From positions 1 to 31,225 of the IMG/VR virus record IMGVR_UViG_3300010299_000036: a DNA stretch of 31,225 bases; one strand, 5' to 3'. A program made the position numbers and the translations under genes. Under the pieces are notes generated by a model. The model searched no databases. It saw only the letters and a program-made list of their open reading frames with translations, and was not told the origin of the DNA. Shown one piece after another: positions 2,263-31,111 of the stretch (the first letter of the stretch is position 1; every line of letters begins with the position of its first letter). The DNA is from a virus.

Positions 2263-2970
2263 ATGGGATTTCTTGATCATACAACTAACAATATTATATT
2301 AGACGCCGTGTTAACGGATAGCGGCCGACAGGCTTTGGCCAGAAATGATGGTTCATTTTCTTTTATTAAGTTCGCATTTGGCGATGATGAAGTGGATTAT
2401 AGCATTATTCAAAAATTTGGACGCGTAGTAGGAAAAGAAAAGATTGAGAAAAACACTCCTGTTTTTGAAGGTCTCACAAATCAAAACTTTAGTCAAAAGT
2501 CTAGAATGGTTAGTGTTTCTAATCCAAATCTTGTTCGTTTGCCAAGTTTAGATCTTACTGGTGAAAATCTTGCATCAGATATTGTTTCTCTTGGAGCCAC
2601 GACTACAAAAACATCATCTTTGACAGTTTCTCAGTCAATTCAAAATGAAGACATTATTGATGCAGAACTCAGAGATCAAGGTTTTGAAATTACGATGAAT
2701 AATGATTTCCTTCAAATTCAGGGATTTGTTCCTGATATTGTGGATGGAACAAGAGTTGCAACATATATTTTGAGAAGAGATCCAACAGAAACATCTGTTG
2801 GTGGTTCTCGATTGACACTCACGCTGGAAGTTAAAGCTATTTCTAGTGCACAATTTACTGTTTTTGGAACAGCAAATAACAAAAATCTTATTCGAACCTT
2901 TGTCAAGATTAAGGGTGTTCAATCTGGTGCAGTCAAAGAATTTGAAGTTCAGATAAACAAGAACACATGA
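2263..2970 (+). CDS. Conserved phage structural protein (235 aa)
   Basis: The protein opens with MGFLDHTTNNIILDAVLTD followed by SGRQALARNDGSFSFIKF and FGDDEVDYSIIQKFG. I associate this N-terminal block with structural proteins of large T4-like environmental phages, although I cannot name a T4 counterpart. The C-terminal half is predicted beta-rich. The start lies six bases after the preceding stop, and the short leader GGTAAATAAA also occurs before the next gene at 2982. Its position inside the tail gene run supports a virion component. The biochemical role is unknown. Confidence 0.7.
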   Translation: MGFLDHTTNNIILDAVLTDSGRQALARNDGSFSFIKFAFGDDEVDYSIIQKFGRVVGKEKIEKNTPVFEGLTNQNFSQKSRMVSVSNPNLVRLPSLDLTGENLASDIVSLGATTTKTSSLTVSQSIQNEDIIDAELRDQGFEITMNNDFLQIQGFVPDIVDGTRVATYILRRDPTETSVGGSRLTLTLEVKAISSAQFTVFGTANNKNLIRTFVKIKGVQSGAVKEFEVQINKNT

Positions 2971-2981
2971 TAGGTAAATAA

Positions 2982-4223
2982 ATGGCAGTTTTTAAAGAAT
3001 TAACACCTAACGACATCAAGACAGCTCGTTCTTTTTTAAATCAGCTTATTGATGTTACGCAAGAAGACATTAGTGGTTCGGCTACAAGGCAAAAGTATCA
3101 AGCCTGGGTCACTGGAGGAATAGGGCCAGGCGTCACCTCGTCGTTATTTCAAACAGTTCATGACCAAGACCTAACGCTACAAACAGCAAACGAAGTTTTG
3201 GATATGACTGTTGGACTATATTTCTCTGGGTCTACTGTTCAAGACATTAAAACAGGTGAAGATAGTGCAGGAAAATTATTGTTTCCGTCTACCTCTCTTC
3301 AAATGAGAGAAAAAATTAATATTTATAAACAGCACTCTTTGATGCTTCTTGGTGATGTAGATGGAAGATTTGCATCACCTTTTGGATCAGCCACGTCATC
3401 TGATCTTATCAATGAGGCATTGTTTATTGATTTTAAGCGTCTTTTCTTTAGAGATGGAATAAAAAGAGAAACATTTGCTATGCAATTTTATCAGACATCA
3501 TCTAATAATGGTTCTGGTCCTTCTGCAACAACAACAAACAATGTAATTATAACTTCCGAAAATGGAGCTAAAATCTTTACAGATGCTGGGGCTGCTGCAA
3601 ATCAAGAAGTATCTTTTGGAGGAAAAGTTTCTAATGTTGTTGATTCAGGTGATACTAATAGAAATGTAGGACTTTTATTCAATGATCAGGGAATTTTGGT
3701 CTTAGATTTGGCAAAGGTTATTTCTGGTTCGGAATTTGTTACAGGAGTTATTCATGCAATGAGTCCTGCCGCTGTTTCTGCACATGCTGATACCGCAGCT
3801 GGTTATACGCTAATTGGAGATCAAGACGCAGGTGGAAACCCAAATGCAAAATTCATCCCAGACTTCTTGACATCAGCTTCTTTGGATAATATTATCGATC
3901 ACTTCGCGTCAACAAGATTTAGTTCTGGAACTCTTACATCAATGACTTTCCAGAATCAAACTATTATTAATTCTACATTGGTTTTTGCAAGAGCAACAGC
4001 TGACGAATTCAACTATAGTTCTAATCAGACTTTTGTTGATTCTTCAAATAAGATTGTTGTTATTGATGAAGGGCAAGAAGATGTTCAGCAGACATTTACA
4101 TTTATTACGTCTGTAGGACTATACGATGCAAACAATAATCTTTTGGCAGTTGCTAAATTATCAAGGCCTGTCGAGAAGAACCCAGAGAAAGATGTTACTT
4201 TCCGTATTCGATTGGACTTCTAA
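2982..4223 (+). CDS. Virion structural protein with shared C-terminal module
   Basis: This 413-residue protein has a helical N-terminal region and a Ser/Thr/Gly-rich, beta-prone middle. The C-terminal 43 residues (TFITSVGLYD, then LLAVAKLSRPVEK, ending FRIRLDF) align with the end of the 794-residue protein encoded at 4665-7049 (VYITNVNWLDD, NLSQPIKK, IKGKMDF). The shared tail suggests a common docking or oligomerisation module. The gene begins 11 bases after the previous stop. It is part of the structural operon, with a likely tail or baseplate role. I do not recognise a specific T4 homologue. Confidence 0.7.
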   Translation: MAVFKELTPNDIKTARSFLNQLIDVTQEDISGSATRQKYQAWVTGGIGPGVTSSLFQTVHDQDLTLQTANEVLDMTVGLYFSGSTVQDIKTGEDSAGKLLFPSTSLQMREKINIYKQHSLMLLGDVDGRFASPFGSATSSDLINEALFIDFKRLFFRDGIKRETFAMQFYQTSSNNGSGPSATTTNNVIITSENGAKIFTDAGAAANQEVSFGGKVSNVVDSGDTNRNVGLLFNDQGILVLDLAKVISGSEFVTGVIHAMSPAAVSAHADTAAGYTLIGDQDAGGNPNAKFIPDFLTSASLDNIIDHFASTRFSSGTLTSMTFQNQTIINSTLVFARATADEFNYSSNQTFVDSSNKIVVIDEGQEDVQQTFTFITSVGLYDANNNLLAVAKLSRPVEKNPEKDVTFRIRLDF

Positions 4224-4230
4224 GGAAAAT

Positions 4231-4644
4231 ATGAAATTAAGTCAAATTGTAAATAATATTAAATTAAGATTTCAGTCAATAAAACAAAATCCAAAAAATT
4301 ACTTTTTGGATTTTGGAGATTTTCAAGTTTATATTGATAGTTTCTCCTACGACTTAGATCAGGTGGATTGCAATTTCTGTGGATATCCTGTTTGTGATTA
4401 TGTCAAAAGTAGTGCAACAATTTGTGTAAAAGGAATTACTACAACTGAAGTATTAGAGCATATGAAAAGTTTTGCCTATGGAGAAACTGGTGATTATTTG
4501 AGAACAATTGTTGTTGAACCAACGGGAACAATTCTTGAAGGTGCTTTTATTAGAGATTTTAGTGTAAGATATCTAAATGACTTGGACAAAACAATGAAAT
4601 TTGATATGACAATTATTGCAAATAATATAATTGAAAGAATTTAA
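4231..4644 (+). CDS. Small virion-associated protein (137 aa)
   Basis: I chose the ATG at 4231 because AAGGA sits just upstream and it follows the preceding stop by seven bases. A longer start at 4126 would overlap the previous gene by about 100 bases. The protein contains a Cys cluster, CNFCGYPVC, at about residues 48-56, and a beta-rich second half with TIVVEPTGTILEGAFIRDF. The cluster could bind a metal or be structural, but only three cysteines are close together. The family is not recognised. Its place between two structural genes suggests a small tail or baseplate component. Confidence 0.65.
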   Translation: MKLSQIVNNIKLRFQSIKQNPKNYFLDFGDFQVYIDSFSYDLDQVDCNFCGYPVCDYVKSSATICVKGITTTEVLEHMKSFAYGETGDYLRTIVVEPTGTILEGAFIRDFSVRYLNDLDKTMKFDMTIIANNIIERI

Positions 4645-4664
4645 TTAAATCACCATACTAAAAG

Positions 4665-7049
4665 ATGTCACTTGTTAGAATTACAGAAGACGATGTTGAA
4701 ACATTCACCATTGTTACAAATCCTAAAAAAACATACGCAAGCGGAGTTTTTACTGGGATCACGGGAACACTTAATCTGTTTGCAAGACGCTCAGATATTG
4801 AAAAGGAAACTCGTCCTCTTTCTTCGTTTGTTAAATCGTTTTTTAATGACGAAAGTGTTGAAGACTTAAGAAGAAGAATACTAGAAAAAGCAATAACTTC
4901 AACCAATGTCAATTCTGAAGTCAATGCATATCTTTCTGGAGTTAATAATGAACTTACTTCTTCTAGAAAGCATAAAAAGCTCAATATTTTTAGATTTGAG
5001 CCTTCTTTTCAGTTTACTAAAAACACTCTAAAAAAAAGGTCTATTCAAGAATTATATCCATATTATCGCCATGAATACCCAGATGCTCATTGGGCATACA
5101 CCAATTATCATAGCTTGAATTTTTTCACAGCATCTGGTATTCCTTCTGATTCTGTTTTATTATATCCAAACTCATCTTCTGTTCCATCTCTATCTTCTGT
5201 TTCTGGGACTTATTCTCTTCCTGGTGAATTTACATTTGAATTTTATATTAATCCAAGATATTCAACAGATGAGCCAACAAGTGACTTTAAGGCAGGGACA
5301 ATATTTCACTTGTCTTCTTCTTATGCTGTATCTTTGGTTACAGGCTCTTCAAAGGATAGCAAAGGCTATGCCGATGGATACAGAATTCAACTTCAATTAA
5401 GTCATAGCGCAGATGTTTCTCCATCATTAGCCACTGTTGGGGCAAGTTATCCTGGTGATCTTGTTTTTCAATCACGTGATAATTCTCTTAAGAAAAATCA
5501 TTGGCATCATGTAGCAATTCGCTGGGGTACAAATCAAATAAATGATGGAAGTGGATCTTTTTTCATTGATGGTGTTGAGCAAGGATCTTTTGTGGTTCCT
5601 TCTTCAACAATAGCACCAGCCCCATACGGCGCTCCATATAGCAACCCAGATGTTTTATGTATTGGAAATTACTATGAAGGATTCAATACGGGTTCTTCGG
5701 CCCAATCAGTTTTCTTCAATACAAATCCATCAACACGTGATGGTTTGGTGAATCTTTCTCCAAGCCTAACTCAGCACGCACCAGATGAATATTCTTTTAC
5801 TCATCCATTAAATGCAGAAGTCCATGATTTAAGAATATATAATCAATTTAGATTAGCAAGTAATATTATTTCTGATACAAAAAATGGGCCAAGTACTCTT
5901 GATGATTTGGTATTTTATCTTGGTCCTTTTTTCACAAAAGAAAGTCCAGTAAGAACTGTTTTGAATCAACAAGGCGGTGTTCTACAAACACCATTTTTTG
6001 GAATTGATGGATATACAGATGATCCGTTCAATGTGGCAATGTCATTTGGTGTTGGTGGTCATTATTTGAATTTAGAAAATTTTCTTAGAGATTTAGTAAC
6101 AGGAAATTATCCAAGACAGTTTCAACTAACAGCATCTCAGATTACAGATACAGTTGTTCCCAAAGAAGCAAATGAATTTTTATACCAAACAGGATCAGTT
6201 AGAAAAAGAAATGTTACAGTTCTTCCTTGTGATAATGGTTTGTTTATTCCAAACTTTGATCTTTTGAAAAGTGGAACATTCAGTAATACTCCTTCTACTG
6301 GATCTTCAATGGGCAAGTTTGTAAATGATTTTGGTCACCTTGATTTGACTTTAATTTCGTTGAACAATCTTGTTACGACATCTAGTTTGAGACCAGGGTT
6401 GGTTTATCAGTCAGGTTCTATTTTTGATGGCATTGCTGGCGCTACACCTGAAGATCCTGGCGTAGATCCAGGAGAAGTTCTAACCATTTACCAAAGAACA
6501 AGAGACTCTTCTTCAAATGAAGTAGCATTTTTTGAATTGAGTAATATTTTCTTTGGAAACAGAATAAATCCTGGTAGTTTCAAAATTGTTGATTCTAAAA
6601 TTACTGGTACATCAGAAAAGGTGTCAATTACACTAAGGGACAACGGTTATGGAAATGTGTATCGTGCAGATTGCTTAACAGAGCATGCAACATGGAATAG
6701 TGTTGGTAATATTTTTTATAATGAAGGAATTGTAGTTGTAAAAAGTCCAAATATTCCGTTCTTTGGAAAAGAACAGTGGGAGATGGAGTTTGAGGGAGAG
6801 CAGACAGTTCATGTAATGATGATATCTGCTGAAGCAGCAGCTGGACTTGTTAACTCGTCTAGTCATCCAAACTTTTTACCAGTATCAGCATCCTTAAATG
6901 CAAACGATCCAGACAAGAATTTTGTATATATTACAAACGTTAATTGGTTAGACGATAATCTGAATGTTATTATGAAAACCAATCTTAGCCAACCGATTAA
7001 GAAAAGAACGAATGACAAATTCTTAATCAAAGGTAAAATGGATTTTTAA
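4665..7049 (+). CDS. Large structural protein with LamG/concanavalin-like domain
   Basis: In this 794-residue protein, residues about 175-390 read as a laminin-G/concanavalin-A jellyroll: GEFTFEFYINPRYS, then NHWHHVAIRWGTNQ, then SGSFFIDGVEQGSF, closing with AEVHDLRIYNQF. These domains bind carbohydrate or form trimeric beta-sandwiches in phage tail-associated proteins. The last 44 residues carry the same module as the end of the protein encoded at 2982-4223. The N-terminal 170 residues include YRHEYPDAHWAYTNYHSLNF, which I do not recognise. There is no membrane segment. It is probably a surface-exposed tail or baseplate protein, perhaps with host-glycan contact. That role is inferred from the domain, not shown. 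Confidence 0.75.
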   Translation: MSLVRITEDDVETFTIVTNPKKTYASGVFTGITGTLNLFARRSDIEKETRPLSSFVKSFFNDESVEDLRRRILEKAITSTNVNSEVNAYLSGVNNELTSSRKHKKLNIFRFEPSFQFTKNTLKKRSIQELYPYYRHEYPDAHWAYTNYHSLNFFTASGIPSDSVLLYPNSSSVPSLSSVSGTYSLPGEFTFEFYINPRYSTDEPTSDFKAGTIFHLSSSYAVSLVTGSSKDSKGYADGYRIQLQLSHSADVSPSLATVGASYPGDLVFQSRDNSLKKNHWHHVAIRWGTNQINDGSGSFFIDGVEQGSFVVPSSTIAPAPYGAPYSNPDVLCIGNYYEGFNTGSSAQSVFFNTNPSTRDGLVNLSPSLTQHAPDEYSFTHPLNAEVHDLRIYNQFRLASNIISDTKNGPSTLDDLVFYLGPFFTKESPVRTVLNQQGGVLQTPFFGIDGYTDDPFNVAMSFGVGGHYLNLENFLRDLVTGNYPRQFQLTASQITDTVVPKEANEFLYQTGSVRKRNVTVLPCDNGLFIPNFDLLKSGTFSNTPSTGSSMGKFVNDFGHLDLTLISLNNLVTTSSLRPGLVYQSGSIFDGIAGATPEDPGVDPGEVLTIYQRTRDSSSNEVAFFELSNIFFGNRINPGSFKIVDSKITGTSEKVSITLRDNGYGNVYRADCLTEHATWNSVGNIFYNEGIVVVKSPNIPFFGKEQWEMEFEGEQTVHVMMISAEAAAGLVNSSSHPNFLPVSASLNANDPDKNFVYITNVNWLDDNLNVIMKTNLSQPIKKRTNDKFLIKGKMDF

Positions 7050-9991: not shown

Positions 9992-10990
9992 ATGGGAGAA
10001 GTTCATGCATCGGCCGAAAAGCTTGATTTTATTGAAAGAGCATTTGGTAAAGCTGAAATTTATTCAAAAGGAAATATTCAAGTCAAGTGTCCAAAATGCT
10101 TGAAACAACATCAAAGAATGGGCCTTCCTCTTAGGAAACGAAAACTTGCAATCAATATTCTCATGGGAGATATTTTTCATTGTTGGGTTTGCGGATATCG
10201 GGGAAGGTTGACAATGGCGTTACGAGATTATTGTTCCTCTGGCTTGCTCATAGAATATTTGAAACGATTTGCAGACCAAAAAACGCTGACCGCTGTTGCT
10301 GATTCCAAATCTAAGAAAAAAGAAATCAGGCTTCCTCCTGACTTTAAATTTTTGGCATTTCATCAAAATAGCAAAAATTTCAATATTAAAAGAGCGTTAA
10401 ATTATGCAAAAAAACGTGGATTGACTGAAAGAGATTTGTGGTATTTTAAGGTTGGAATATCTGATGATTGGCCATGGGTAAATCGTTTACTTTTTCCATC
10501 GTTTGACAAAGAAGGAAATTTCAACTATATGGTTGGAAGATCTTATGTAAAAAATGCAAAATACGCTTATTGGGATACTCCTATTGATGCTACATCTATT
10601 GTTTTCAATGAATCAAACATTGATTGGAAAAGTGAAGTTACAATAACAGAAGGAATCTTAGACTTGGTAAAGTGTAATGACAATGCAGTTCCTCTGTTGG
10701 GATCTGATTTAAAAGCTTATAGTGCATTGTTTGGTATGATTATCAAACACAATACTCCTGTTTTATTAGCAATGGATCAGGATATGGCATATAAAAAAAT
10801 GCCAGGAATTGTTGACCTATTTTTAAAAACAGGCATTAAGTTGCGAGTTCTACCAATGGGTGAATATGGTGATGTAGGAGATATGACAAAAGAAGAGTTT
10901 TCTTCAAGAAGAGATCAAGCCCCTCTTTGGAATAGAATGTCATTGCTTGCACACAAAATTAATGAAATTACAGCAGGACCAGTATTATGA
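9992..10990 (+). CDS. DNA primase, DnaG/T4 gp61-like
   Basis: The protein has an N-terminal zinc ribbon (CPKC at about residues 31-34 and CWVCG at about 66-70) followed by a catalytic part with Toprim signatures: the glutamate in VTITEGILDLVK and the aspartates in VLLAMDQDM. This is the arrangement of DnaG-type primases that lay down RNA primers for lagging-strand synthesis. The length of about 332 residues is close to T4 gp61. I chose the ATG at 9992 because an upstream in-frame ATG at 9893 would overlap the previous gene by 65 bases and add a sequence unlike a primase N-terminus. Neither start has a clear ribosome site. The stop overlaps the next start (ATGA). Confidence 0.8.
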   Translation: MGEVHASAEKLDFIERAFGKAEIYSKGNIQVKCPKCLKQHQRMGLPLRKRKLAINILMGDIFHCWVCGYRGRLTMALRDYCSSGLLIEYLKRFADQKTLTAVADSKSKKKEIRLPPDFKFLAFHQNSKNFNIKRALNYAKKRGLTERDLWYFKVGISDDWPWVNRLLFPSFDKEGNFNYMVGRSYVKNAKYAYWDTPIDATSIVFNESNIDWKSEVTITEGILDLVKCNDNAVPLLGSDLKAYSALFGMIIKHNTPVLLAMDQDMAYKKMPGIVDLFLKTGIKLRVLPMGEYGDVGDMTKEEFSSRRDQAPLWNRMSLLAHKINEITAGPVL

Positions 10991-13900
10991 AAATAGCTCA
11001 TTTTGCAGATATCCATTTTAGACCATTTGATAGACATGATGAATATCGTCAAGCATTTCAAGAATTCTTTGACAATTCATCAAGTTACAATTTGGATGCA
11101 ATAGTAATTGCAGGAGATATTCTGCACGAAAAAACACAAAGAATAACACCAGAAGTTATAGAAATGCTTACTTGGTTATTTACAGAGTTTGCCAAGGTTG
11201 CAGATACATACATTATTCTTGGAAATCATGATGGAAATTTAAAAAATCTTCATCGTCGTGATGCTATTTCTCCTATTGTAAAAGCATTAGATAATCCAAA
11301 AATCCACTTATATATTAAATCTGGACGTTATCCCCTTAATGATGATATCAATTTTTGTGTGTTTTCACCATTTGATGAAAAAGGATGGGAGCATGTAAAA
11401 CCAGAAGATAAAAAAATAAACATTTGTTTATTTCATGGATCTGTTCAAGGGTGTACTACAGATAATGATTTTGAATTAGATGGTGAAGTTGAGCCATCAT
11501 TTTTTGATGGATATGATTTCACATTCTTGGGAGATATTCACAAACACCAATATATGGATTCAGAAAAAAGAATAGCGTATCCAGGATCTACGCTTCAACA
11601 AAATTTTGGTGAAAGCATTAATAATCATGGATTTCTTCTTTGGAACATTAAAGATAAAGATAATTTTGATGTTGAGCATGTTGAGTTGGAAAACAAAAAA
11701 CCATTTGTAACACTAAGGTGGAGAACAGACGTTGATAAACAAAAGCTTCAAAGACTAATGTTTGAAGCAAGCAGATACCCAGATAATTCAAGGTTTAGAA
11801 TTTATAGTGAAAACAAAATTCCACAACAAGATAAAAAGAAGATTGAAAATGAATTAAAGTCTCGAAAGAAAGCTTCTCTTATTGTTTACAAGAATGAGAA
11901 AACAGGAACTGGGATTATTGATGATGAAATGAATCGCCAGTTACGAAGAGATTTAAGGGATCCTTCAACAATATTCACATTACTTCAAAATTTTTTAGGA
12001 AAAAATTGTTTCAATCAAAATCAATGGAACATTATCAATGATACAATTGTTCACTATTCTGAAGAATTAGTTGCTTCTGAGGCCAATATTGTAAGGGGAA
12101 GAACATGGATTCCCAGAAGAATAGAGTTTGATAATATCATGCAATTTGGAGAAGGAAATGTTATTGATTTTGATGATTGCAATGGTGTTGTTGGAATATT
12201 CGCTCCAAATTTTAGTGGAAAGTCAACATCTGTTGCTGCTATGGTGTATGCATTATTTGGTCGAGTAGATAGAGAAATTAATCAAAATCATTATCACGGA
12301 ATGGTTAATGATAGACGAAATAAATGTTCTGCAAAATTTGATTTTACTGTTTCTGGACAAAATTATCGAGTTCATAGAACAACTGAAAAAGTAGAGAAAA
12401 AAGATGGTCGTTATGGTACTACAAATAAAATTTGGTTTTATCAAATGACAGAAGATTGGGAGGAAGAAAAGCCGCTCAATGGAGAAAAACCTTCAGATAC
12501 AGAAAAAGAAATACGAAAGATTGTTGGAACATTAGAGGATTTCAAACTTACAGCTTTATCTAATCAGAGAAATGTTGAAGCTTTTATGCGTGAGCGTGTG
12601 ACAGTTAGAAAACAGCATCTTGCGAGATTTAGAGATCTTCAGCCTCTTGAGTATCTTCACTCTTACGCAAACAAGGATTGGGCTGAGCAAAAAACAATTC
12701 TCAAGTCTCTTGTTCCTCTTGACTGGGATAGAGAGATTAATAATCTTGAATCAGAAAAAGAAGTTCTTGCAAATGAAATTGAACATCATGAATCAATGCT
12801 TGAAATTTTGAGAGATGGCCTCTCAAGTCTAAAGAATGAGCTAGTAAACAAAGGTGGTGATTCAATCATTACTCAAGAAGAACTTGATACACAAGCTGAT
12901 TTAGTAGAAAAACTTGAATCCGACAAAGAAAAGACGGAGATTCAAATTAAGGCAATATTAGAAAGAAAAGATGATCTTCAAGAACAGCTTAATGTCGTTA
13001 TTGACAAAAAGAAGAATATCGATGTAGAAAAAATAAAAAGAAAGCTTGAAAAGAAAAATGAGCTTGAAAAGCAAATTTCTGGACTTAAAGAAAAGTTAAA
13101 AGCGGCTATAAAGACCCTTGAACAAAAAGAAAAAACAGTAAAGAAGCTTGATCTTGTTCCTTGTGGTGATCAGTTTCCAACATGTCGATACATTAAGGAT
13201 GCACATGAAGAAAAAGGAAACATTAAACCTCAAAAAGAATTAATTGAATCAATTGAAACAGATATTCAAAAATGTGAAATTTTGATTGTTGATGAAGAAG
13301 ATTATTCAAAACTTTTAAAAGAACATTCGGATCTAGAAAAAAAAGAAATATCATTAATTAAAAAAATATCATCTGTTTCTGTTGAAGCTTACAATGAAAG
13401 ACTTGACAATATTGAAACGAAGTTGTCAAATGCAATACAGAAGCTTAAAGAAATGGAAATGAATGTTTCCGATGATGATTCTGTCAATGATCTTAGAGAA
13501 AAAATTGAAAAAATCAAAATTGAAATTAAAGATATTGATAAAAAAAGAATCAATGATGCAACGCGCATTGGTAAAATAGATGGAGAAATAGAATCATTAC
13601 GTTCTGATGAAATCAAGTATGAGGCTGTAAGTGATAAATGTGCAATATTTGAACAACTTACATTTGCGTTTGGTAAAAAAGGAATACCAAATCAAATTCT
13701 CAGAACAGATCTTCCTGCAATTAATGCAGAAATTAAAGAAGTTCTTGCAGATATTGATGATGTTGATTCCGTAGAATTCGAACTAGAAGAAGAGAGCGAT
13801 AAATTAGACATCTATGTTGAAAGCAATGATACAAGGATTCCTATAGAACTTTGTTCTGGAGCCCAGCTTGTTATTGCATCTGTTGCTTTGCGTGTTGGTT

Positions 13901-14127
13901 TGATGCGTGCTTCTAACCTTCCAAAGCCTGACATGTTTATTTTAGATGAGCCATTTGAGGGAACGGATGCTAGTAGAATTGATAGTGTCGTCAAAATGAT
14001 TGAATCATTGAAGAAATGGTTTAAGAAAGTATTCTTGATTTCTCATATTGAATCAATTAAGGAAACAGCTGACATTTTGATTGATGTATCAAAAAAGGGA
14101 AAGGACTCTTATGTTTATCACGTATAG
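10987..14127 (+). CDS. gp47-gp46: Single-chain Mre11-Rad50 (gp47-gp46 / SbcD-SbcC) recombination nuclease
   Basis: The first ~350 residues are a metallophosphoesterase with all the usual motifs: ADIHFRPFD, GDILHEK, LGNHDG, LFHGS and LGDIHKHQY. From about residue 376 follows a Rad50/SbcC ATPase: Walker A at 403-414 (GIFAPNFSGKST), two long coiled-coil arms, a Cys pair at 726 and 733 where the zinc hook belongs, a signature motif LCSGAQLVIAS at 955-965, Walker B FILDEPFEGTD at 984-994 and the H-loop LISHIES near 1018. In T4 these are separate genes, and the complex resects ends for recombination-dependent replication. The hook spacing (C-x6-C, not C-x2-C) and signature (SGAQ, not SGGE) are unusual. 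The gene overlaps the primase stop by four bases. Confidence 0.92.
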   Translation: MKIAHFADIHFRPFDRHDEYRQAFQEFFDNSSSYNLDAIVIAGDILHEKTQRITPEVIEMLTWLFTEFAKVADTYIILGNHDGNLKNLHRRDAISPIVKALDNPKIHLYIKSGRYPLNDDINFCVFSPFDEKGWEHVKPEDKKINICLFHGSVQGCTTDNDFELDGEVEPSFFDGYDFTFLGDIHKHQYMDSEKRIAYPGSTLQQNFGESINNHGFLLWNIKDKDNFDVEHVELENKKPFVTLRWRTDVDKQKLQRLMFEASRYPDNSRFRIYSENKIPQQDKKKIENELKSRKKASLIVYKNEKTGTGIIDDEMNRQLRRDLRDPSTIFTLLQNFLGKNCFNQNQWNIINDTIVHYSEELVASEANIVRGRTWIPRRIEFDNIMQFGEGNVIDFDDCNGVVGIFAPNFSGKSTSVAAMVYALFGRVDREINQNHYHGMVNDRRNKCSAKFDFTVSGQNYRVHRTTEKVEKKDGRYGTTNKIWFYQMTEDWEEEKPLNGEKPSDTEKEIRKIVGTLEDFKLTALSNQRNVEAFMRERVTVRKQHLARFRDLQPLEYLHSYANKDWAEQKTILKSLVPLDWDREINNLESEKEVLANEIEHHESMLEILRDGLSSLKNELVNKGGDSIITQEELDTQADLVEKLESDKEKTEIQIKAILERKDDLQEQLNVVIDKKKNIDVEKIKRKLEKKNELEKQISGLKEKLKAAIKTLEQKEKTVKKLDLVPCGDQFPTCRYIKDAHEEKGNIKPQKELIESIETDIQKCEILIVDEEDYSKLLKEHSDLEKKEISLIKKISSVSVEAYNERLDNIETKLSNAIQKLKEMEMNVSDDDSVNDLREKIEKIKIEIKDIDKKRINDATRIGKIDGEIESLRSDEIKYEAVSDKCAIFEQLTFAFGKKGIPNQILRTDLPAINAEIKEVLADIDDVDSVEFELEEESDKLDIYVESNDTRIPIELCSGAQLVIASVALRVGLMRASNLPKPDMFILDEPFEGTDASRIDSVVKMIESLKKWFKKVFLISHIESIKETADILIDVSKKGKDSYVYHV

Positions 14128-17774: not shown

Positions 17775-19829
17775 ATGGCGAGTAAGAGACAGAATTTATT
17801 TTCAAGATTAACAAGGCTTTTTAAAGCCGGTCCCATTGTAAAAAGAAAAGTTCGTGGATTTGATAGTGCATCCGTTCAGTCTTCAGCATTGGATGTTTTT
17901 AGAAAGAGCACTGCAACAGTTTATGGAAACAGCTTGAATGCATATGGACAATATGACAGATTGTCAAGGTATGCAGATTTCAGTGAAATGGAGTATACAC
18001 CAGAGATTGCAAGTGCTTTGGACATTTATGCTGATGAAACTGTAGCTAAAGATGAAAAAGGCCATAGTCTTCACATTTATTCAGAAAACCCAAAAATCAA
18101 AAGGCTCTTAGAAGAGCTTTTTTATGATACATTGAATTTTGAATTTGCGGCACGAGCTTGGGTTAGAAACCTTTGCAAGTACGGAGACTTCTTTATTCTC
18201 AATGATGTTTCACCAAAGTATGGTGTAATCAATGCTCATCCTATTCCTGTTAATGAAATTGAAAGAGAAGAAGGATTTGATCCTGAAAACCCATTTGCTG
18301 TTAGGTTCCGTTGGGTAACCGAAGGAAATCAAGTTCTTGAAAATTGGCAAGTTACTCATTTTAGATTATTGGGAAATGATACTTTCTTACCCTATGGATC
18401 GTCAGTGCTTGAAAGTGCACGTCGTATTTGGAGGCAACTTGTCATGGCCGAAGATGCAATGCTTGTTTATCGTGTTATTCGATCACCAGAACGTCGTGTT
18501 TTTTATATTGATGTAGCAAATGCCCCTCCAAATGATGTTCCAAATATTATTGAAAATGCAAGAGCAACATTGAAGAGTCAAGAGGTTGTTGATAAAGATG
18601 CTGGTCGTGTTGATTTACGTTATAACCCTTGGGCGGTTGACATTGATTATTTCATTCCTGTTCGTGGAACTGAGGCTGGAACACGTGTTGATACATTGCC
18701 TGGTGGTGCTAATACAACAGCCATTGATGATGTTGAATATATTCAAAGAAAACTATTTGCAGCCCTTAAAGTTCCAAAAGCATATCTTGGGTTTGAAGAA
18801 GCATTAAGTTCAAAAGCTAACTTGGCTCAAGAAGACATTAGGTTTGCTCGTTCAATTCAACAAATTCAACAAGTTGTTATTTCTGAATTGAATAAAATTG
18901 CAGCTATTCACCTTGCAGCACATGGTTATGATGGTGAAGATTTAATTAATTTTAGGCTTCAACTTTCAAATCCATCAACAATGGCTCAGCAACAAAAGCT
19001 TGAGATATTGAGAAGTAAGTTTGAAATTGCTGGTACACGCCCGGAAGGAATGCTTTCTGATAACTTTGTTTACAAAGAGATCTTTGGATTGACTGATGAG
19101 TACATTCAGAACATGGAAGAAGATCAAATCAAGGAACTTATTAGAAGGGCTCAAATGGAGCAAATGGGTGCAGCGGCGGCTGAAGGCGGAGAAGGTGGCT
19201 TCGGAGGCGGCGGTGGAGGCCTTGGAGGAGGCCTCGGAGGCCTCGAATTGCCTGATGAAGGTGGGGATGAAGGTGGTGGAGAAGGAGAGCCTGGCGGCGG
19301 CGAAGAAGAACCACCAGCAGGTGAAGAAGATCTATTTGCCAGTGAAAAACCTTCTTATCGTCCACTTATTACTGATGACGAAGATGAAATTATTGAATTT
19401 GATCTTGATGAAAATGAAGATGAATACAAGCCTGTTCATCAGCAAAATCAAGCAACAAGATATCGTCATAATAACTTAAGGCCAAGTAGGCGAAAAATGA
19501 GAGGATCGAAAGGATTAAATGTTCCAAACCCAGGAGATGCATTAAAGCATGATGATCCACATTATCATGATGTTGGAATGAAAAGAGCGTTTAGTGCTGT
19601 TAAATCTGTTCACAAGGGAGGAAATTTGAAATTAGCAGATTCGTTCCAAAGACACTTGGATATGATTGAGGATTCTGAAATTAAAAGAACAAGATTATCA
19701 TCTGAGACACGTAGAACAATAGATTCTCTTTCAAAACAAATACCTATAAACAGGAACACATTAATAGATTCTGTTCCTGTTAAATCTCAAGGCTTAATTA
19801 TTGAAGCTGACGAAGGGGATGATGAATGA
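17775..19829 (+). CDS. gp20: Portal protein (T4 gp20-like)
   Basis: This 684-residue protein carries the gp20-type core: SALDIYADETVAKDEKG, WVRNLCKYGDFFI, YGSSVLESARRIWRQLVMAE, DYFIPVRGTEAGTRVDTLPG and DVEYIQRKLFAALKVPK. The portal forms the twelve-subunit ring at one capsid vertex through which DNA enters and to which the neck attaches. After the conserved part (about residue 455 on) there is a Gly-rich, GC-rich, acidic stretch (residues 470-520), then an acidic and basic tail that T4 gp20 lacks. AAGGAAG lies just before the ATG. The stop overlaps the next gene's start (ATGA). Confidence 0.92.
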   Translation: MASKRQNLFSRLTRLFKAGPIVKRKVRGFDSASVQSSALDVFRKSTATVYGNSLNAYGQYDRLSRYADFSEMEYTPEIASALDIYADETVAKDEKGHSLHIYSENPKIKRLLEELFYDTLNFEFAARAWVRNLCKYGDFFILNDVSPKYGVINAHPIPVNEIEREEGFDPENPFAVRFRWVTEGNQVLENWQVTHFRLLGNDTFLPYGSSVLESARRIWRQLVMAEDAMLVYRVIRSPERRVFYIDVANAPPNDVPNIIENARATLKSQEVVDKDAGRVDLRYNPWAVDIDYFIPVRGTEAGTRVDTLPGGANTTAIDDVEYIQRKLFAALKVPKAYLGFEEALSSKANLAQEDIRFARSIQQIQQVVISELNKIAAIHLAAHGYDGEDLINFRLQLSNPSTMAQQQKLEILRSKFEIAGTRPEGMLSDNFVYKEIFGLTDEYIQNMEEDQIKELIRRAQMEQMGAAAAEGGEGGFGGGGGGLGGGLGGLELPDEGGDEGGGEGEPGGGEEEPPAGEEDLFASEKPSYRPLITDDEDEIIEFDLDENEDEYKPVHQQNQATRYRHNNLRPSRRKMRGSKGLNVPNPGDALKHDDPHYHDVGMKRAFSAVKSVHKGGNLKLADSFQRHLDMIEDSEIKRTRLSSETRRTIDSLSKQIPINRNTLIDSVPVKSQGLIIEADEGDDE

Positions 19830-26830: not shown

Positions 26831-28705
26831 ATGAGCTTTTCTCTAGACACATTAACAGAAGACGTAAGAGCAAGACACCTTGGTGTTGAGTCACGCCGTC
26901 TTACCGAGAAGTGGTCACGTACCGGACTTCTTCGTGGAATGACAGGATACGACCGCGAGAACATGGCTCGTTTGCTTGAAAACCAAGCAGCCGAGATTCT
27001 TAGAGAGTCATCCAGCCTTTCCACTGGTGCAGCAGCACTTACATCAAGTGGACAGGTTAGAGGTTTCTCTAACGTAGCATTCCCAATCGTTAGAAGAGTT
27101 TTCGGCGGACTTGTGGCAAACGAACTTGTTTCCATTCAGCCAATGAGCCTTCCAGCTGGATTGCTTTTCTACCTTGATTACACTTATGGTAACAACGTTG
27201 GTGGCGAAGCCTCCGCAACTGATACCGTATATGCATCAGGAGATTCAATCTACAACAACCCAGTAGGTGCAGGAGTTCGTTCCGGATCACTTGCCACTGG
27301 TGGTCAGTACGACCTTGTTGGAACAGGATTCACAAAGGTTCACACAGGTTCCTTGACTGTTTCCGGATCCAACGTAAGCGTCGGTGCTTTCACAGGAGCA
27401 GCAAACGCATGGGCAACTGGCGGAATCGTTGATACAGTTAGCGATTTCACTGGAACCAACGCTAAGCTTGTCTCTTTCGACCCTCAAATCGAAGAAGCAC
27501 TTGACCTTGGAACAAGAGATTACGTCTACTTCTTCCTACCAGTTACTTCCTTAACAACAGCTATCCCAACAGGTGATGTAAGCCGCGTCAAGCAGATTGC
27601 TATTACCGACATGGGTACCAACAACGGAGCTATTGCTTGGGGAGAAACCTTCCAAGGTGGACGAGGTGTTCTTAACCTTCGTCGCTGGAACGAGCGTGGT
27701 GATTGGGACGGTTCTGTATGGACACCAGATGCACTTGGTGGAACACACGTTAAGTTTGTTCTTGCTTTGAGCAACGGTGGAGCAGTACCAACAATCGGTA
27801 CTTCTGACATTCATGTCTCAATGGCAATGAGTGACTCTCTCGACGTTGGTGGAACAGATGGTGATACTCTTACCATCCCAGCATTCGAATCTGACTTCAA
27901 CGTAACGGCTAGCCCAGCTATCCCAGAAATTGATATCAAGATCGAGCAAATCAGCGTTGTAGCTTGCACCCGTAAGTTGAGAGCACGTTGGTCCCCAGAG
28001 CTTGCTCAGGATCTTAACGCGTTCCACAGCTTGGATGCAGAAGTTGAACTTACCAAGATTCTTTCTGAGCAGGTTGCTTTGGATATCGACCGTGAAATCC
28101 TTAACGATCTTCTTACTGAAGGAAACGGCGCAAACTTCTTCTGGAGCCGCGCACCAGGTAAGTTCGTAAACAAGAGAACAGGAAGCGAAGTTCAGTTGAC
28201 CTCAACTCTCGCAACCGGTCCTCAGTTTACAGGAACTGTCCGTGAATGGTACGAGACCTTGGTTGAAACCATCATCGACGTTGCTAACGAAATCCACAAG
28301 AAAACACTTCGTGGATCCGCTAACTTCATCGTTTGTGGACCAGATGTTGCTACAATCCTTGAGCAGAGCGCTCTTTACAAAGCCTCTTACAAGATTGACG
28401 GTAACGGACAAGTCAGCAACCCAATGACCGTTGGTGCAGAAACCGTAGGAACTGTTGCAAACAGATTCACTGTTTACAAAGACCCATACTTCCCACGTCC
28501 AAAGATTCTTGTTGGATTCAAGGGTGGAAACTACTTGGAGACCGGATACGTCTACGCTCCATACGTACCACTTATCGTAACTCCAACAATCTTCGCTCAG
28601 GAAGACTTCACACCACGTAAGGGTGTAATGACCCGTTACGGTAAGAAAATGGTTAGAAGTGACTTTTATGGAACGGTGACCGTTTTAGATCTCAATATCA
28701 TATAA
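26831..28705 (+). CDS. gp23: Major capsid protein (T4 gp23-like)
   Basis: The 624-residue protein has gp23-type features: RGFSNVAFPIVRRVFGG, then NELVSIQPMSLPAGLLFYLD, later ARWSPELAQDLNAFHSLDAE, and FIVCGPDVATILEQS. It should form the HK97-fold hexamers of the head. A likely protease site is ILRE at 56-59, before SSSLSTG, close to where T4 gp23 is cut after E65. The ribosome site AGGAG is well placed. Codons are noticeably more C-ending (AAC, TAC, GAC, ATC) than in neighbouring genes, as expected of the most highly expressed phage protein. A strong terminator follows. Residues 435-510 and the last ten residues recur in the small ORF at 30761. Confidence 0.93.
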   Translation: MSFSLDTLTEDVRARHLGVESRRLTEKWSRTGLLRGMTGYDRENMARLLENQAAEILRESSSLSTGAAALTSSGQVRGFSNVAFPIVRRVFGGLVANELVSIQPMSLPAGLLFYLDYTYGNNVGGEASATDTVYASGDSIYNNPVGAGVRSGSLATGGQYDLVGTGFTKVHTGSLTVSGSNVSVGAFTGAANAWATGGIVDTVSDFTGTNAKLVSFDPQIEEALDLGTRDYVYFFLPVTSLTTAIPTGDVSRVKQIAITDMGTNNGAIAWGETFQGGRGVLNLRRWNERGDWDGSVWTPDALGGTHVKFVLALSNGGAVPTIGTSDIHVSMAMSDSLDVGGTDGDTLTIPAFESDFNVTASPAIPEIDIKIEQISVVACTRKLRARWSPELAQDLNAFHSLDAEVELTKILSEQVALDIDREILNDLLTEGNGANFFWSRAPGKFVNKRTGSEVQLTSTLATGPQFTGTVREWYETLVETIIDVANEIHKKTLRGSANFIVCGPDVATILEQSALYKASYKIDGNGQVSNPMTVGAETVGTVANRFTVYKDPYFPRPKILVGFKGGNYLETGYVYAPYVPLIVTPTIFAQEDFTPRKGVMTRYGKKMVRSDFYGTVTVLDLNII

Positions 28706-28730
28706 TAATCAGTTGAGACCATAAGAGAGA

Positions 28731-28756
28731 AGGGAAGCCTAAGCTTCCCTTTTTTC
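28731..28756 (+). terminator. Rho-independent terminator after the capsid gene
   Basis: AGGGAAGC (28731-28738) pairs with GCTTCCCT (28743-28750) around a CTAA loop, and six T's follow. It lies 25 bases after the capsid stop and should end the head transcript. Confidence 0.92.
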
Positions 28757-30566: not shown

Positions 30567-30774
30567 TATATCAAATAAAAATAAATTAATTAAAAAATTA
30601 AAAACATCAAAAAATGTTCCTTCATGGAAATTGATGCCAAGTGTTGAAGATTTTGATAATCCTGCAAGAAAAATGAGAGATCTTGAAGACGAGATAAGAG
30701 AGCAGTCTTTTTTGGGACTAACACCATACCCAGAAGATTATGGTTTTGAGGAGGATTATTATGAGGAATATTAG
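30559..30774 (+). CDS. Small acidic hypothetical protein (71 aa)
   Basis: I chose the ATG at 30559, which overlaps the end of the methyltransferase-like gene by eight bases. An in-frame TTG at 30544 is less likely. The start is basic (NKNKLIKKLKTSKNVPSWKL) and the end very acidic and aromatic (YGFEEDYYEEY). The family is unknown. Its last codons contain the strong ribosome site of the following gene, so the two are probably translated together. Confidence 0.5.
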   Translation: MANISNKNKLIKKLKTSKNVPSWKLMPSVEDFDNPARKMRDLEDEIREQSFLGLTPYPEDYGFEEDYYEEY

Positions 30775-31111
30775 AAAAACATATTATTGGAGTCGTGTTC
30801 CTGGTAAGTTCGTAAATAAAGAAACAGGACAAGAAGAAAAGAAAGAATTCAATGGAACAGTTGCTCAGTGGTATGAGGGGTTAGTTCATATTGTTAATGA
30901 TATTATTGGACAAAATGATAATGTAATTCTAAAAGCAAGTGAAAATATAGCAACAATATTGCTATTAGGAAATCTAAATCAAAATTTATACAACAAACTA
31001 ATTCAATCAAAAAAGCAAGACATTCTTCCATCAAAAGAAGATTGTAAAATTTTTATTGAAATTAACAATAATGTTTATATTGTAGAGATTTTAGATCTTC
31101 ATTTTATTTAG
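30761..31111 (+). CDS. Stand-alone partial copy of the major capsid protein (116 aa)
   Basis: AGGAGG at 30749-30754, six bases before the ATG at 30761, fixes this start over an in-frame ATG at 30740. Residues 8-67 align with capsid residues 435-510: YYWSRVPGKFVNKETGQE against NFFWSRAPGKFVNKRTGSE, NGTVAQWYEGLV against TGTVREWYETLV, and ENIATIL against PDVATIL. The end (VEILDLHFI, stop) matches the capsid's end (VTVLDLNII, stop). It therefore looks like a capsid gene with its first two thirds, a short internal piece and most of its last 110 codons removed. DNA is also alike in places, e.g. GGTAAGTTCGTAAA in both. A decoy, an assembly modifier or a decaying remnant are all possible. The intact frame and strong ribosome site favour a working gene. 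Confidence 0.75.
   Translation: MRNIRKTYYWSRVPGKFVNKETGQEEKKEFNGTVAQWYEGLVHIVNDIIGQNDNVILKASENIATILLLGNLNQNLYNKLIQSKKQDILPSKEDCKIFIEINNNVYIVEILDLHFI

Follow-up and report, generated by a model that had tools for sequence, protein, structure and literature searches.

An axial domain of the T4-like major capsid protein occurs as a free-standing gene in uncultured phages and may serve as a capsid mimic

The window analyzed here is a 31,225-base IMG/VR record of a T4-like phage, taken at its full length, in which a portal ORF lies at 17775–19829. Positions 26831–28705 of the plus strand encode a full-length T4-like major capsid protein (MCP) of the Gp23 family (624 residues; Pfam Gp23, E = 5e-74), and directly 3′ of it a terminator-like hairpin of 14 pairs (28725–28756, plus strand) splits the MCP from a downstream block of small genes. 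Near the right end of the contig, the plus strand carries an ORF of 116 residues at 30761–31111, hereafter the mini-MCP, with the ribosome-binding site GAGGAGG (30748–30754, plus strand; read from the sequence) placed 6 nt 5′ of its ATG. A second in-frame ATG at 30740 lies 5′ of this site and was judged the less likely start. Beyond the mini-MCP, the contig ends within a papain-like peptidase gene, of which it holds the C-terminus alone (31225–31108, minus strand); this gene is convergent with the mini-MCP and overlaps it by 4 nt. The GC3 of the mini-MCP is 0.16, versus 0.40 for the window MCP. The T4 late-promoter motif TATAAATA occurs in the window at chance level, so the timing of mini-MCP expression is not readable from it. 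Two features lie apart from this locus: the ORF at 10987–14127 of the window (1046 residues) fuses an Mre11/SbcD-like phosphoesterase to a Rad50/SbcC-like ATPase, its product corresponding to T4 gp47–gp46 as a single protein, and portal matches in L005, L006, L015 and L018 are interrupted by inserts of ~1.1–1.6 kb, which suggests introns or endonuclease insertions.

When compared with the window MCP by BLASTP, residues 8–67 of the mini-MCP matched MCP residues 436–510 with 40% identity (E = 3e-13), and no meaningful match was found among the remaining window proteins. Alignments that include other members of the family extend this homology, pairing mini-MCP residues ~74–101 with MCP ~540–562 and the mini-MCP segment VEILDLHFI with the MCP end, VTVLDLNII. 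The copied parts, as delimited by alignment and by the MCP model, correspond to MCP codons 434–562 (28130–28516, plus strand), a part of the A-domain, and to codons 613–624 (28667–28702, plus strand), the last strand; absent are mainly MCP ~565–612 and everything N-terminal of ~432. The initial annotation had described a 116-residue ORF behind a strong ribosome site, with codon usage unlike that of the full capsid gene, that reproduces capsid residues 435–510 and the capsid's last ten residues, and each of these statements agrees with what we find. It had also stated that the rest of the capsid protein is omitted, which is right for the internal deletion and too narrow in that MCP ~540–562 is covered as well. 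Sequence homology thus places the mini-MCP with HK97-fold A-domains. At 116 residues and with no Pfam family it is not a functional MCP (Gp23, PF07068), and, holding only ~432–562 and 613–624, it is not a full-length vertex paralogue of the gp24 type.

The AlphaFold2 (AF2) model of the mini-MCP, calculated from a 40-sequence alignment, is a compact fold with a pLDDT of 84.5 and a pTM of 0.77. Foldseek returned no match to this model in the PDB at E < 0.001. The first match by VIA-align was the MCP of phage S6, with 95 residues superimposing at 3.0 Å and a Z of 8.2, close to what the tool gives as background when a model has no clear match; it was followed by the phi-kp24 MCP, HRP29, the EBV MCP, encapsulin and the P1 head, so that the best six are all HK97-type shell proteins. 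These matches fall on the axial (A) domain of the capsid fold, an assignment of topology that comes from VIA-align on a predicted model, Foldseek alone being not significant. The absence of a shared fold had been named at the outset as an outcome that would speak against the relationship; instead, the mini-MCP model best matches HK97-fold capsid proteins. The full window MCP was predicted poorly overall (pLDDT 58.7), with well-predicted islands at residues 171–338 and at 434–562 plus 613–619, the second of which is the mini-MCP and the first a piece that stands alone in a related phage (L004, below). The C-terminal part of the window MCP (414–621) best matched T4 gp23 (7vrt; Z 11.0). From these islands and this match, the mini-MCP is most simply modelled as the MCP A-domain minus a P-domain excursion at 563–612.

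A seeded peptide scan with the mini-MCP alone recovered no relatives of it, and a tblastn search of INPHARED with the mini-MCPs of the window, L168 and L181 gave no match in cultured phages. Scans of IMG/VR found the same free-standing module in six further uncultured phages, making seven phage types with the window. Among 80 loci fetched by MCP similarity, only G085 besides the window has a mini-MCP. The WSRxPGK motif, followed by a short loop, was sought in two DNA-pattern scans, which led to L138, whose MCP is 63% identical to that of the window and is directly followed by a free-standing ORF of 155 residues; this ORF starts at the same point as the window mini-MCP, has the same loop and helix and likewise closes with an MCP-like end. 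A search with the L138 protein then yielded L152/L153, a scan for WSR[VILMF]PGK yielded L159, L168 and L181, and whole-contig profile searches of 150 contigs yielded G085/L213, in which an unrelated N-terminus of 98 residues is fused ahead of the module. The pattern scans favored V, I, L, M or F after WSR and missed other residues unless a contig was searched whole. L152 and L153 are 100% identical across their 2758-bp overlap and were therefore scored as one phage; theirs is the one copy of the seven split by a frameshift, into two ORFs with a 1-nt overlap (L153:4691–5250 and L152:571–1130), which may be a decay step, a pair of cooperating chains or a case of frameshifting.

Three further candidates were set aside. 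A pattern based on the start position mostly retrieved full MCPs with a methionine at that spot; several full MCPs in L145–L150 have it exactly at W−9, the start point of the window and L138 mini-MCPs, and an internal start within these MCP genes is conceivable. Two matches from a scan of genome contigs were unrelated and due to chance. The short 'major head protein' family phrog_12830 also matches within full MCPs, so we took it to be a cluster of split MCPs rather than a known family of short pieces.

All mini-MCPs apart from the fused L213 begin just before [YF]WSRxPGK, 5–21 residues from the W, and all end on the MCP-like ...LD... strand after a jump over roughly MCP 565–612. The loci that carry them are unrelated. 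In the window and L138, the mini-MCP is in the head-gene region, 3′ of the MCP and divided from it by a terminator-like hairpin. Others lie in a RecA/dUTPase replication operon, in the order RecA, mini-MCP, dUTPase in L153 and dUTPase, mini-MCP, 5′-3′ exonuclease, helicase, ribonucleotide reductase in L159. Yet others adjoin a UDP-sugar dehydrogenase and NAD-salvage genes: L168 reads UDP-sugar dehydrogenase, mini-MCP, NadM/Nudix, NAMPT, L181 reads mini-MCP, UDP-sugar dehydrogenase, NadM/Nudix, NAMPT, and a UDP-sugar-type dehydrogenase is also near the mini-MCP of G085. Of 34 contigs, only the two with the L168 and L181 loci had NAMPT, and its link to the mini-MCP is biased because both contigs were found through the mini-MCP. 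A full MCP is present alongside the mini-MCP in G035, G037 and G085, with 58 kb between the two in G037. As a separate observation, a LAGLIDADG intein occupies the ribonucleotide reductase at L152:5467–8769.

When the corresponding stretch of the MCP was decayed neutrally in simulation, the frame was still open in 0.25% of runs at 35% identity and in 1.25% at 40% identity, figures that indels would lower. Across the six intact mini-MCPs 19 columns are identical. When conserved MCP columns were defined by an identity of at least 98%, eleven fully conserved ones were found to be kept in all six: the loop contributes W, S, R, P, G and K, the helix contributes W, Y, L and D, and the eleventh is the final D. 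The equally conserved MCP stretches IH.KTLRG, NF.V.P and DPYFP are not kept, and this unevenness argues for selection on the WSR loop, the start of the helix and the last strand; the pattern points to selective retention instead of decay. The dN/dS ratio by NG86 was left unused because dS is saturated. A decaying remnant had been offered as the null explanation, and the sevenfold recurrence, the improbability of the open frame and the uneven retention of sites, set against a single split copy, do not bear it out. Recurrence as a short ORF in several phages had likewise been proposed as a mark of function, and a full paralogue or only disrupted remnants in relatives as a mark against it; the seven phages are of the first kind, and neither of the contrary outcomes was found. 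Because at least six other phages have a separate gene for the same cut-out domain, we regard it as a maintained gene and not as debris, and we consider both this status and the identity of the ORF as a relative of the MCP A-domain to be highly probable.

Other MCP pieces also occur as separate ORFs. The two closest relatives of the window, L003 (MCP 89% identical) and L004 (82%), have such pieces downstream of the MCP, and the mini-MCP fragment was not found in either. In L004, an ORF of 221 residues (L004:6729–7394) is the MCP insertion domain alone, about residues 151–337 (match to MCP 153–337, E = 1e-26), and 41 contigs contained no second stand-alone ORF of this kind. L003 has an ORF of 69 residues with a weak match to MCP 82–122. 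The papain-like peptidase gene at the right edge of the window also adjoins the MCP piece A of L003, so the two places correspond; the suggestion that related genomes be searched for an ORF in the same place therefore led to different MCP pieces and not to the mini-MCP. Between the MCP and the peptidase gene of L003, a single ORF at positions 2808–4232 holds both a NUMOD3 motif and a Mom-like domain. In G037 (also L216, a 309-kb contig), three neighboring small ORFs at 4528–5685 have MCP-like tails, the first reaching MCP 403 (best part 378–403; score 122 versus a shuffle maximum of 46), the third matching MCP 79–124 (score 127 versus 55) and the middle one, with a score of 42 versus 44, suggestive only of MCP 406–428 or, more widely, 404–431. 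In our reading they appear to share an SH3-like N-terminal pattern, and piece A of G002 has a similar layout. For MCP 79–124, we take the aligned counterpart in T4 gp23 to be the Gol region.

In phylogenetic trees, the mini-MCPs cluster away from the MCPs on very long branches; none of 500 shuffles gave a mini-versus-MCP clustering value as low, and a single origin received 68% of bootstraps and an SH-aLRT of 75. The window mini-MCP does not group with the window MCP and is therefore not a recent copy, as the initial annotation had maintained. One origin is favored but not proven by these trees. Several independent partial duplications of the MCP, each separately recruited, would fit any role of the product, and the poorly supported single origin, the long branches that may attract one another and the occurrence of further MCP segments as separate ORFs lend them weight; the common left edge, the common internal jump and the clustering against MCPs make such independent origins unlikely on balance.

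The capsid protein is not easily changed by phages and is read by several bacterial immune systems. We suggest, with confidence slightly short of an even balance, that the mini-MCPs are a maintained accessory family, an isolated HK97 A-domain in an uncultured T4-like clade, that acts as a capsid mimic and likely decoy. The protein would be made as a soluble monomer resembling the capsomer-centre face of the MCP; with no N-arm, E-loop, P-domain or spine helix, and hence presumably unable to build shells, it would still bind the normal partners of the MCP A-domain. The likeliest partner would be a capsid sensor of the host, similar to CapRel or to a Thoeris TIR protein, that is occupied but not activated. 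Published defenses provide such sensors: CapRelSJ46 contacts P-domain and A-domain loops of the MCP, and Lit/Gol is noted in the same paper (PMC9712102), while Sau-Thoeris ThsB1 has been placed by modeling in the middle of the capsid hexamer and triggers a loss of NAD (PMC11312562). That the mini-MCP blocks a capsid-sensing defense is the more tentative step, plausible from gene context and this literature, the A-domain being found in non-structural operons and twice beside NAD salvage. Against it, Sau-Thoeris reportedly senses the hexamer, an assembly not expected of an isolated domain, and the NAMPT association carries the bias described above; the family is also sparse among MCP-similar contigs, one copy is frame-split, and the structural matches are near background or below significance. 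If the proposal is true, a gene presenting only the recognized domain would be a direct way past capsid sensing, which would become testable from the phage side. A broader version, which we consider doubtful, is that small dispersed genes each present one MCP region and so jam different capsid-sensing defenses. The parts would be the A-domain of the mini-MCP, the insertion domain of L004, the Gol-region N-terminal segment (G002, G037 and weakly G001) and the spine helix (two adjacent ORFs of G037, of which one is weak). Several of these parts would be borne by a small SH3-like barrel, and the parts would display the epitopes that sensors read.

The main rival to a decoy is interference with assembly, by which the mini-MCP would bind MCP subunits or capsomer centers and poison or delay shell assembly, either in co-infecting relatives, as exclusion, or in the phage itself, as timing. 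The mini-MCP retains those A-domain elements that are most conserved and contact-like, coexists with a full MCP in three phages and has the patchy occurrence that suits an exclusion factor, and MCP-domain fragments are plausible dominant negatives; were assembly the target, it would be a natural dominant-negative capsid domain. We nonetheless judge interference unlikely, as neither the strong divergence from the phage's own MCP nor the non-structural neighborhoods in five phages are specially predicted by it. A minor structural or chaperone role, as a capsomer plug, a vertex-associated protein or an assembly helper, would suit the position in the head-gene region of the window and L138; it is improbable given the five copies among replication or NAD/sugar genes, the distance from the MCP in G037, the absence of mini-MCPs from most related phages and the missing N-arm, E-loop and P-domain. 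A functionless remnant of a duplicated MCP, which the downstream MCP pieces of L003 and L004 (that of 69 residues looks eroded) and the frame-split L152/L153 copy could recall, is very improbable in view of edges that seven phages share across unrelated loci, frames that neutral decay would rarely leave open, unevenly kept sites and a confidently predicted fold. Returning to the decoy, we found in the open-access literature no phage protein that is a lone MCP domain acting against capsid sensors and, as weak evidence given that scope, no stand-alone A-domain protein; nor did we find a description there of the capsid fold being used in this way, as a stand-alone HK97 A-domain gene set into various operons.

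Among known proteins, T4 gp24, the vertex protein and gp23 paralogue, is like the mini-MCP an MCP paralogue with the HK97 fold. Unlike the mini-MCP, which is one domain and often far from head genes, gp24 is full length and builds shell vertices. T4 gp23 (PF07068) has the homologous A-domain segment, as seen in the match of the window MCP model to 7vrt, whereas the mini-MCP misses the Pfam model and lacks the N-arm, E-loop, spine helix and P-domain. CapRelSJ46, Lit/Gol and Sau-Thoeris recognize regions of the MCP, and the free-standing pieces described here correspond to the A-domain, the spine helix and an N-terminal segment resembling Gol.
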